This document shows, piece by piece, positions 18,280 through 21,524 of a stretch of 47,547 nt of DNA. Below the pieces are notes generated by a model. That model ran no database searches, was not told the origin of the DNA, and saw only the letters and a program-made list of their open reading frames with translations. Source of the stretch: an uncultured Verrucomicrobiota bacterium (GTDB lineage Bacteria; Verrucomicrobiota; Verrucomicrobiia; Limisphaerales; UBA9464); assembly GCA_903939515.1 (NCBI GenBank), contig CAJAHH010000129.1:1-47547 (forward strand), given 5' to 3'. Every line of letters starts with the position of its first letter. The first letter of the stretch is position 1. A program made the position numbers and the translations under genes.

Positions 18280-19005
18280 ATGAGACCTTTTCCATCATCC
18301 AGGGCCGCGCTGTTCCGCCACGCCTTCACGTTGATCGAATTGCTCGTCGTCATCGCCATCATCGCCATCTTGGCAGGAATGCTCCTGCCAGCACTGGCTC
18401 GAGCTAAGGCCAAGGCCCAAACAATTCGCTGCACGAGCAACGAGAAGCAAATTGTCTTGGGCTACTTGCTGTATGCGGGCGACCAAACCGATTTTCTGCC
18501 GGTGGCGGGCACCGAGGCCCCGGTCGGATCGGGGTGGGTGGCCCCGAGCCGATGGTTCGCTGAAATCTCCACGTACATCGCCACCGACAACCGCAACTTC
18601 ACCAACCTCGTCGCCAAGGACAAGGTGGTGGCCTGCCCCACGGCCAAGATCGGCACCAACGTCATCCCGGCCAACGTTCCCGGGTATCAGGGTTACGGTG
18701 GGTATGGGCACAACTATGCCTACCTCGGATACACCCCGGCGGACCGAGTAAAAACCTCCCTCATCACCAAGCCTTCGGACACCGTGATGAACGGCGACGG
18801 ACTCGATCCCGCCAAGGGCCTGGAATGGTGGAACTACGGGTACTTGTACCCACCCAGCCTGGGGGTCGCCTTATTCCGCTACGTCCGTCACGGTCAGGGC
18901 GGCAATTATGCGTGGGCGGACGGACACACCGCGGTCATGCCCTGGAAGACCCTCTCCAAGGGAGCTAACGGTAAGGTGGATTGGTTCTATCAACCGGGAC
19001 AGTAG
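18280..19005 (+). CDS. Type II secretion/type IV-like pseudopilin with H-X9-DG tail
   Basis: A 241-residue prepilin. A short basic leader is followed by [16 protein letters not shown], the methylation/cleavage segment, with Glu at +5 and the hydrophobic helix. After it comes [16 protein letters not shown], typical of the very abundant verrucomicrobial pseudopilins. Near the C-terminus [14 protein letters not shown] fits the H-X9-DG signature. The residue before the cleavage point is Ala, not Gly, as is common in this phylum. No secretion apparatus genes are nearby. A 10-bp perfect palindrome (tgacatgtca, 18263-18272) lies immediately upstream and could be an operator. Confidence 0.92.
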
Positions 19006-19127
19006 CACTCCCCTTCGCCACGACCTCCCCGTGAAAGGAATGGATCCTTGGATTCGGAGGGCGACCGCTAAGAAGCCGGCTCGGGCGATCGGGAATCCCC
19101 AGAGGGTTATGGGAGGAGGGTCAACGC

Positions 19128-19160
19128 GACACCCACGACACCTGCCACTTCCTGCGCGAC
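19128..19160 (+). pseudogene. Remnant of a second msrA (two fused fragments)
   Basis: Two blocks of msrA are joined here. Positions 19128-19140 (gacacccacgaca) equal 17830-17842 in msrA, which codes for DTHD. Positions 19138-19160 match 18164-18186, the last coding bases of msrA (TCHFMRD), in 22 of 23 positions. Together they look like the scar of an msrA copy that lost its middle. There is no reading frame of useful length. Confidence 0.5.
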
Positions 19161-19209
19161 GGAGGGCCTCGAATCGGTTGGTATCGACCTCGCAGTCGCT
19201 TCTCCTCAC

Positions 19210-20298
19210 ATGAACCGTCTTTTTACCCCTTTCACGGCCGGCGATCTCCAGTTGTCCAACCGCATGGTCATGGCCCCGCTCACCCGGGGTCGCACCGGTC
19301 CCGACCGGATTCCCAATGACCTCATGGTCGAATACTACCGGCAGCGGGCGACGGCGGGATTGATCATCAGCGAAGCCACGATCATCTCCGAGCAGGCAGC
19401 CGGCTGGGTCAACACCCCGGGTCTCTACAACGAGGAGCAGGTGCAGGGATGGAAACGGGTCACCGACGCGGTCCATGCGGCCGGCGGCAAAATTATTGTC
19501 CAACTCTGGCACATGGGCCGTTCGTCCCATCCCGATTTTCAACCCGGCGGGGCTCTGCCCGTGGCCCCTTCGGCCATCGCTCTCCGCGGCGACGGCATTC
19601 ACACCCCTTCGGGCAAGAAGCCGTATCCGACTCCCCGAGCCCTCGATGCCGATGAGATTCCCGGAATCGTGGCCGACTACGCCACGGCGACACGCCAGGC
19701 TCAAAAGGCCGGATTTGATGGGGTCGAAATCCATGGAGCCAATGGCTACCTCATCGATCAATTCCTTCGGGATGGAACCAATCACCGAACCGACGGCTAC
19801 GGCGGCAGCGTGGAAAACCGAGCTCGATTCCTCCTCGAAGTCACCGAGGCGGTGATCGGGGCTTGGCAACCAGGACGCGTCGGAGTCCGACTGTCGCCCA
19901 CCGGTGCCTTTGGCGACATGAGCGACAGTGATCCCGCGTCGACCTTCAGCCATGCCGCCCGAGAATTGAACCGCTTCGGATTGAGTTTCCTTCACATCAT
20001 GGAGGCGCTGCCGGGTCATCCAATGGCAAGCCCAGGGCCGCGGGTCGCACCGCTGCTGCGCCAGGCCTTCCGGGGTCCAGTGATCCTCAATGGCGGCTAC
20101 GATGCCGCGCTGGGAGACCAGGCCATCGCCGATGGGGAAGCCGATCTCGTTGCCTACGGCGTGCCGTTCTTGGCCAACCCGGACCTGGTCGAGCGCTTTC
20201 GCATCGGGGCCCCTCTGAACCCTCCCGACTATTCGACCCTGTATAGCGGCGGTGCCCAAGGCTACACCGACTATCCGGCGCTCACCGCCACGCCCTAA
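19210..20298 (+). CDS. nemA: Old yellow enzyme-family alkene reductase (NemA-like)
   Basis: A 362-residue FMN-dependent reductase of the NemA type, which reduces activated C=C bonds or nitro compounds with NAD(P)H in the cytoplasm. It starts with LFTPFTAGDLQLSNRMVMAP and contains QLWHMGRSSHPDFQPGG. The catalytic pair is His175/Asn178 in HGANGYLIDQFLRDG, followed by NHRTDGYGGSVENRARF. The C-terminal FMN-phosphate region has VILNGGYD and DLVAYGVPFLANPDL. Length matches E. coli NemA (365 residues). Its stop overlaps the stop of the convergent DTW-domain gene (20295-20298). No regulator lies nearby. Confidence 0.9.
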   Translation: MNRLFTPFTAGDLQLSNRMVMAPLTRGRTGPDRIPNDLMVEYYRQRATAGLIISEATIISEQAAGWVNTPGLYNEEQVQGWKRVTDAVHAAGGKIIVQLWHMGRSSHPDFQPGGALPVAPSAIALRGDGIHTPSGKKPYPTPRALDADEIPGIVADYATATRQAQKAGFDGVEIHGANGYLIDQFLRDGTNHRTDGYGGSVENRARFLLEVTEAVIGAWQPGRVGVRLSPTGAFGDMSDSDPASTFSHAARELNRFGLSFLHIMEALPGHPMASPGPRVAPLLRQAFRGPVILNGGYDAALGDQAIADGEADLVAYGVPFLANPDLVERFRIGAPLNPPDYSTLYSGGAQGYTDYPALTATP

Positions 20299-21524
20299 CC
20301 CAGGCGCGCCAGCTGCAACCCTCCGGGCGGCTGAAGCTGCCCGGAGCCCGCCCGCTGCTCTTCCAACAGTCGCCGAATGAAGGCCGACATGACCCGCACC
20401 GCCGCACCGGCCCGACCGCTGGCCACCGCCGGGCCTTCGACGTTGGCTCCAATCGATTGAGCAGCCAATGCGGCGGTCCCCGGACGGCGCTTGAGGCGAT
20501 GGGCTGCCACGATACGCAAATCGATGGGCTCGCACTCGGGCTGCCACGATTCCTGCGCCCACAGTTGGACCGCAAAATCACCCCAACCCACCAAATGGTC
20601 CCCCGGCTTGAGGAAGCCATTCCAAGCTAAGGTCGCCTCCGCGACGGTTCGGCCGCCCAAAATCATCTCCTGGAGCACTTCCAAGTGTTGGTGAGCCCGA
20701 GCCGCCAACGGTCGGCGCGGAGTCAAAAACACTTCAAACACTTCCCCCGTTGCCGGCCGCATCGCCACGAATTGGAGGAGTTCGGGAGATCCAGGCACAG
20801 GGCTGTCCCGCCGATGGGCATTGGCTTCGCCGGCCACCACCACGAGGTTGGGCCACAAAGCCATGAGGTCGGGCATGGACGGGCTTTCCCACCACGGATC
20901 CGCCCTTTTTAACCGACGGCGGGGCGGCCCCGTGCGGGCGGCGGTGGCGGCAATTTGACGGTCCACCATGGCGTCGAAGGCACTGAGCAACGGTTGGAAA
21001 CGCCGCTCGTCTCCCTCCCAGGCGCTGAGCACCTCCACCACCGCTTCCACCGTGGCGACGCAATGCAAGTCGGGTTCCCGGCGGATGCGGTAATTGCCCG
21101 GCTTGCGCGGCATGAACCCGATGCGCGGCAAGGCCCGCAGCGCCGGATTGAGCGCCACCATCTTGCGCGCCTGGGGCCACGTGCCGTCGATGATGATCAA
21201 CGTCTCAGGCGGTCGTTCGAGAGCATTGGGTGCCACCGCTCCGGGACCGGGAAACAGCAAGGCCGTCCCGGGCCGGGCCAGCAGTTCCTCGATGCGCGGA
21301 TGACCGGCGAATTCAATCCCCTCATGAAGTTCACTGCGGGATAAACCCAAGTGCGCAATGCGGGCCGTCCCAATGGCCACCCGGGATTCGCGGGGATGCT
21401 GCAAGAACACCACCTGCGTCGCCGTTTCGACCGGCGTCAACTCGGCGCACCAGCAGGCAGAGGCTGGGCGTCGGCAGCGCACGCAGGAAGGACGGGCCGT
21501 CAAGGCTTCAAAGGGGACAGGCAT
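20295..21524 (-). CDS. DTW-domain tRNA-uridine aminocarboxypropyltransferase with C-terminal extension
   Basis: A 409-residue protein. The first ~200 residues are a DTW domain: a cysteine cluster (Cys14, 17, 24 and 26 in CVRCRRPASACWC), FLQHPRESRVAIGTARI, and the signature IIIDGTWPQARKMV. DTW enzymes attach a 3-amino-3-carboxypropyl group from S-adenosylmethionine to uridines of tRNA (or rRNA in Tsr3-like families). Usual bacterial members are about 200-230 residues. The extra ~190 residues resemble a DEDD-exonuclease layout: LVVVAGEANAHRR, then VGWGDFAVQLW, then SGRAGAAVRVMSAFIRRLL. The expected acidic and His catalytic positions are mostly missing there. That reading is inference. The gene ends convergent with the OYE gene with stops overlapping. 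Confidence 0.85.
   Translation of the reverse strand: MPVPFEALTARPSCVRCRRPASACWCAELTPVETATQVVFLQHPRESRVAIGTARIAHLGLSRSELHEGIEFAGHPRIEELLARPGTALLFPGPGAVAPNALERPPETLIIIDGTWPQARKMVALNPALRALPRIGFMPRKPGNYRIRREPDLHCVATVEAVVEVLSAWEGDERRFQPLLSAFDAMVDRQIAATAARTGPPRRRLKRADPWWESPSMPDLMALWPNLVVVAGEANAHRRDSPVPGSPELLQFVAMRPATGEVFEVFLTPRRPLAARAHQHLEVLQEMILGGRTVAEATLAWNGFLKPGDHLVGWGDFAVQLWAQESWQPECEPIDLRIVAAHRLKRRPGTAALAAQSIGANVEGPAVASGRAGAAVRVMSAFIRRLLEEQRAGSGQLQPPGGLQLARLG

Follow-up and report, generated by a model that had tools for sequence, protein, structure and literature searches.

The window, by which we mean the whole stretch of 47,547 nucleotides analysed here, contains on its minus strand an open reading frame of 409 codons plus a stop, encoding a protein in which a DTW domain is joined through a basic linker to a domain of the DEDDh exonuclease type that lacks its active site (Table 1). 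An earlier note, made from the sequence alone, had reported this reading frame, and both the frame and its coordinates were present in the sequence as claimed; the stretches that the note had quoted from the second half were located at residues 228–237 (VVVAGEANAH), 313–322 (GWGDFAVQLW) and 369–387 (SGRAGAAVRVMSAFIRRLL). The fusion gene overlaps by 4 bases the end of a convergent ORF (19210–20298), and its closest relatives (L002–L005) end approximately 12 residues before the window protein, whose extension occupies positions 20295–20333. A frame of 563 codons was also observed on the minus strand (18871–20562), antisense to the ORF at 19210–20298, and is probably spurious. In one close relative (L067, and L019/L025 of genome G005) the frame is broken between the DTW and the dead exonuclease domain, from either a sequencing error or a real split, and either half has an identity of about 91% with the window protein.

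Table 1. Features of the fusion gene (window positions) and tRNA-Sec genes next to related planctomycete genes (positions within each locus).
Feature	Position	Strand	Residues	Evidence or remark
Whole ORF, DTW and inactive DEDDh fusion protein	20295..21524	minus	409 aa + stop	homologues
DTW domain, predicted SAM-dependent acp transferase	20955..21494	minus	11-190	Pfam PF03942, E 1.2e-45
CxxCx6CxC motif	21447..21485	minus	C14, C17, C24, C26	invariant in 31/31 aligned homologues
DGTW motif	21177..21188	minus	D113-W116	invariant in 31/31 aligned homologues
Basic linker	20886..20939	minus	196-213	net positive in 31/31 homologues, mean +3.8
Predicted inactive DEDDh (RNase H-like) 3'-5' exonuclease domain	20343..20885	minus	~214-394	AF2, Foldseek, VIA-align, profiles
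Motif I remnant VVVAGEANAH	20814..20843	minus	first Asp -> A231; acid kept, E233	alignment
Motif II remnant GWGDFAVQLW	20559..20588	minus	catalytic Asp -> A318; N of HN pair -> W314	alignment
Motif III remnant SGRAGAAV...	20364..20420	minus	His -> G370; Asp -> A375	alignment
tRNA-Sec gene, L077	5812-5911	same as fused gene		
tRNA-Sec gene, L078	5797-5896	same as fused gene		
tRNA-Sec gene, L079	55-154	same as fused gene		
tRNA-Sec gene, L080	2452-2551	same as fused gene		
tRNA-Sec gene, L081	5801-5900	same as fused gene		
tRNA-Sec gene, L082	5797-5896	same as fused gene		
tRNA-Sec gene, L083	5794-5893	same as fused gene		
tRNA-Sec gene, L085	3953-4052	same as fused gene		

The earlier note had described the first half of the protein as a normal DTW enzyme, and this description holds, with an intact DTW domain in which the DGTW motif, the four cysteines and 21 further columns are invariant across all 31 aligned homologues. 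DTW alone was recognised when the whole protein was compared with Pfam, with no second domain. The DGTW at residues 113–116 follows the D/E-x-T/S-W pattern of the DTW (TDD superfamily) acp transferases, while C14, C17, C24 and C26 form the CxxCx6CxC signature of bacterial TapT-like proteins, whose spacing is identical in TapT (PMC7026641). In TapT and Tsr3 the motif Asp has been proposed to act as the catalytic base, and changes of TapT C31 and C34 abolished activity, with a change of the motif Asp strongly reducing it (PMC7026641). Residues 1–311 matched a single solved chain, PDB 9kyt, a tRNA-uridine aminocarboxypropyltransferase (E 7.7e-9), which was also the top match in a DTW profile search (E 8.1e-21). 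TapT, DTWD1 and DTWD2 are tRNA acp transferases (PMC6895100, PMC7026641), the product of E. coli TapT being acp3U47 and those of human DTWD1 and DTWD2 being acp3U20 and 20a (PMC6895100). Judged by its family, the DTW domain of the window protein would move a 3-amino-3-carboxypropyl (acp) group from S-adenosylmethionine to a tRNA uridine.

Which uridine this may be was approached through the unfused DTW proteins of the same genomes. E. coli TapT (YfiP, the tRNA acp3U47 transferase) has the DTW motif and the CxxCx6CxC signature in common with the window protein; it differs in being unfused and only about 26% identical, and the TapT-like protein of the genus is a separate, unfused gene. In a genome of the same genus, this unfused protein (L030) scored 83.6 bits against E. 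coli TapT versus 53–54 bits for the fused DTW, and thus the fused protein is not the DTW protein closest to TapT in this comparison. The window's own genome also has a second, unfused DTW match (31% to the query; the TapT scores come from L030 instead), and a second DTW match was present in 11 of the 20 genomes with a fused gene. Because the unfused DTW protein of the genus is nearer to TapT, U47 is probably not the target of the fused enzyme, which would modify a different position. For Vibrio and Pseudomonas, several paralogues of DTWD2 have been discussed whose proposed tRNA sites differ (PMC6895100); some acp-like signals in Pseudomonas are independent of TapT (PMC10962704), and acp3U47 has been confirmed for Vibrio TapT (PMC12588516).

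For the second half of the protein, the earlier note had read the motif order of DEDDh exonucleases and had named a fold unrelated to RNase H-like nucleases as the result that would count against this reading. The AlphaFold2 model of residues 198–402, built with 32 sequences, had a pLDDT of 93.8 and a pTM of 0.88. Foldseek returned 58 PDB matches to this model at E <= 0.001, with ERI2 first (3.7e-8) and RNase T next (2.9e-6), and VIA-align superposed it on ERI3 (7k05; Z 16.4, rmsd 2.7, 165 residues) and 3'hExo (1w0h; Z 16.4, rmsd 2.8, 168 residues) at identities of 11–12%. The best 50 matches of each program were DEDD-type exonucleases and their relatives. A family profile used in hmmsearch found the PolC exonuclease of T. 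maritima (2p1j; E 1.8e-5), collinear over approximately 150 residues, and more weakly 8fyc, a chain named DEDDh (0.0018), and Cas2-DEDDh 8fy9 (0.0059). The C-terminal profile also matched a bacterial DnaQ-like protein (E 1.7e-7), and hhalign against seven bacterial DEDDh proteins gave an E of 3.4e-12 and a probability of 97.6, covering the part after motif I. Model, structure matches and profiles were all of the DEDD type, and the motif order was borne out by the fold, by the collinear PolC match and by the joint alignment described below.

We ruled out a chance likeness of the motifs on the strength of the fold and profile evidence (PolC, the Z score of 16.4 and hhalign). RNase_T was the only Pfam family touched by more than one of the 32 family members, with matches to 8 of the 32 at E <= 1 (best E 0.0045); the window protein itself did not reach the RNase_T cut-off (11.9 bits vs 24), and against NCBIfam at E <= 1 it matched DNA polymerase III epsilon alone, far below the cut-off (E 0.23). 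The shortfall against RNase_T, together with identities of 10–18% among the 50 VIA-align matches listed, would be expected if the likeness to DEDDh enzymes were a common arrangement of the fold rather than descent. We consider that explanation extremely improbable, given three links by sequence profile (PolC, DnaQ-like and hhalign), the high Z score and the same order of motifs. In a separate observation, the window's genome as assembled had no match to Pfam RNase_T (DnaQ-type exonuclease), and one of the nine genomes searched had one; the control for this search was positive in 10 of 14 well-known genomes.

The joint alignment comprised 87 sequences, of which 80 were family members including the window protein and 7 were DEDDh proteins with all five catalytic residues. 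The first catalytic Asp was observed in a single family member, while the position of the motif I Glu was acidic in all 80 (71 E, 9 D). None of the 80 had the second catalytic Asp, and the Asn preceding motif II was Trp in 73. The catalytic His was likewise absent from all 80, with Gly in 75, as was the last catalytic Asp, with Arg in 52 and Ala in the window protein. When a slack of three columns was allowed, 32 of the 80 had an acid close to the second Asp, 8 had a His close to the His position and 9 had an acid close to the last Asp. The claim of the earlier note that most catalytic acids and the His are replaced therefore stands, with D, D, H and D lost and the second acid of motif I retained, so that one of the five residues of a DEDDh exonuclease (four metal-binding acids and a general-base His) is kept. 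The domain shares its fold and motif order with the RNase T, ERI1 and DnaQ-type DEDDh exonucleases and differs from them in the replacement of these four. The sole member with the first Asp (L076, 6538–7059, from Polyangia) has lost the His and both of the later catalytic Asp residues.

The pairing of residues in motif III is uncertain, as hhalign leaves a gap there. The Arg of GRAG had appeared as a direct substitute for the catalytic Asp in an ungapped HMMER alignment to 2p1j; we set this aside, as GRAG lies over HRAL in the 87-sequence alignment, with Gly in place of the His and, five residues further along, Ala (window protein) or Arg in place of the Asp. In all three alignments (HMMER, 87-sequence and hhalign) the window protein has neither Asp nor His at the catalytic positions of motif III. 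Model and alignments together show the C-terminal half as a predicted DEDDh 3'-5' exonuclease fold without its catalytic residues and, since the metal-binding and general-base residues are lost, the domain would not cut. A weak or altered nuclease activity, or nucleotide binding, through the one kept acid could be argued from the invariably acidic E233 position, from the additional Asp of L076 and from the 32 members with an acid no more than three columns away from the second Asp. The complete absence of the His and of both later catalytic Asp residues makes this very unlikely, however, as does the common replacement of the His by Gly and of the last Asp by Arg, which would repel metal.

Despite its lost active site, the domain is not decaying. 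Across nine pairs, dN/dS was 0.10–0.23 for the C-terminal half and 0.06–0.14 for the DTW half (dS was >2, or saturated, in some), and on these ratios the dead domain is under purifying selection. Our preferred reading, held with moderate confidence, is a two-domain tRNA-modification enzyme in which the DTW domain would transfer acp, and the catalytically dead DEDDh-fold domain and the basic linker would hold or position the RNA for the DTW active site. We infer this role for the dead domain because its retention by selection is most likely explained by a continued contribution to holding or positioning RNA. The earlier note had likewise suggested that a dead nuclease domain could recognise tRNA. 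The full-length model had a pTM of 0.56, and the relative placement of the two domains is thus not confidently predicted. This low value weighs against the preferred reading, as do the near-neutral charge of the domain, its absence from some DTW proteins of the fused clade and the lack of tRNA genes in the window and at most loci scanned (all described below).

Positive charge was considered as a sign of RNA binding and rejected, as the linker alone is clearly basic and the domain is not. The C-terminal domain has a net charge close to zero (mean +1.2 over 31 homologues, 0 for the window protein itself), so that charge lends no support to RNA binding by it. R256, F304 and P269 are nearly invariant in the family; most active enzymes in the alignment have them too, and they probably serve the fold. 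A near-neutral domain whose kept residues look like fold positions and not like a new RNA surface would also suit a module for dimerisation or protein–protein contact, through which the acp transferase docks on another enzyme while the domain itself does not touch RNA. We regard such docking as unlikely, though deserving of serious consideration; RNase T and ERI1, to which the domain is related, both have RNA as substrate, and no recognised partner gene was found beside the fusion gene among the flanking ORFs of four loci. A more specific form of RNA recognition can also be imagined. Active RNase T accepts the 3' end of tRNA, and the dead DEDDh domain may do the same, with acp transfer at a site other than U47 being confined to tRNAs whose 3' end is correct. 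We think this quite doubtful; if true, a pseudo-exonuclease would serve as a maturity sensor for RNA modification.

The conservation of the C-terminal half in verrucomicrobial homologues, a check that the earlier note had proposed, was examined in 59 genomes (the window's own and those of the same genus, family and order). Matches were observed in 24 of these: 18 contained the full-length protein, two contained it in two pieces, owing to a frame break in one and to its spread over two contigs in the other, and four had other DTW proteins only. The C-terminal half is thus conserved within this group, and it was also found in Myxococcota and planctomycetes. A scan of 84,980 species genomes was seeded with two conserved DTW peptides, so that its counts are lower bounds, and returned at least 48 loci: 31 verrucomicrobial, 7 from Myxococcota-related, delta- or other Proteobacteria (assigned by record title), 8 planctomycete and 2 others. 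Forty-four of the 48 reach the second domain, one of them (L067) in another frame; the two others were unfused, and two verrucomicrobial loci were ended by a contig edge before the second domain.

Used alone at E <= 0.001, a C-terminal profile made from 10 sequences matched in 8 of 384 genomes of the class. At the same threshold, C-terminal profile searches in the phyla around L073 and L081 matched in 56 of 282 and 28 of 294 genomes, respectively, with a weak tail in both lists that includes ordinary DnaQ-like proteins; loci from these searches are labelled by the phylum of the centre genome. Among the loci opened, nearly all strong C-terminal matches were in frame with a DTW domain, the exceptions being L122 and L134, which were frame-broken, and L113, where no DTW domain was found in a locus sequence of 2330 bases. 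Conversely, a search of 112 genomes from the L073 phylum for DTW returned 30 loci, and 23 of these were fused.

A tree of DTW domains contained 108 leaves after near-identical sequences were removed, 90 of them fused. The smallest clade with all 90 had a support of 0.129 and also included seven without a C-terminal domain in frame, of which L069 was ended by a contig edge, L122 was broken in frame and the other five were unfused. A single origin of the fusion is unsupported given this low value and these seven members, and the DTW domains without a C-terminal domain inside the fused clade indicate that this domain can be dispensable. The 18 verrucomicrobial fused sequences formed one clade (support 0.998), nested in a larger clade with Myxococcota and planctomycete sequences (support 1.0). 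This nesting suggests that the verrucomicrobial fusion was acquired by transfer.

A fusion of DTW with an inactive 3'-5' exonuclease was reported in 2014 by Burroughs and Aravind from planctomycetes and delta-proteobacteria, and an RNA-binding role of the inactive domain was already proposed there (PMC4275035). In their DTWD2 fusion, too, a single protein joins the DTW (TDD) domain to an RNase H-fold exonuclease domain devoid of catalytic activity, and the two groups that they named also hold relatives found here (PMC4275035). The window protein has the same composition and is a verrucomicrobial case of this architecture, in print since 2014; unlike their cases it comes from Verrucomicrobia, which are unnamed in the passage of that paper on the fusion (PMC4275035). 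Burroughs and Aravind favoured an RNase role for DTW, whereas later work on bacterial and human members showed acp transferase activity (PMC4275035, PMC6895100, PMC7026641). Our analysis adds an alignment across three phyla with residue states, a predicted structure, a verrucomicrobial clade with its likely origin by transfer and a reading that treats DTW proteins as acp transferases. Among the open-access papers listed by our searches, no title or opening of an abstract indicated an experiment on a DTW–dead exonuclease fusion. Now that DTW proteins are known to transfer acp, truncation offers a direct test of what the dead domain does, and the fusion may illustrate how a tRNA-modifying enzyme gains substrate recognition by taking over a nuclease with its chemistry switched off.

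The surroundings of the fused genes were also examined for tRNA genes. According to ARAGORN, the window has no tRNA gene, and the same holds for 28 of 38 loci and for 55 of 58 loci of a second set. All eight planctomycete scan loci contained a tRNA-Sec gene just upstream of the fused gene and on the same strand (Table 1), with an Rfam RF01852 score of 67.4 bits and, in L077–L081, a distance of about 40 bases to the likely ATG. The tRNA-Sec was observed again at L088 and L089, loci of the genomes that also contain L077 and L081. Since the ORFs around L077 and L081 are alike and the eight tRNA-Sec scores are equal, this adjacency is probably one event in one group. No tRNA-Sec was found in the other 30 of the 38 loci or in the other 56 of the 58, and we rejected a link to the selenocysteine tRNA, as it is confined to one planctomycete group and is seen neither at other loci nor in the window. 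Against this rejection stands an 86-base match to RF01852 in the window's genome, which scored above the cut-off (54.1 bits vs 47). This match recurs across the genus, where several genomes also have a second match of 74 bases, and it is probably a different tRNA with a long arm, not tRNA-Sec.
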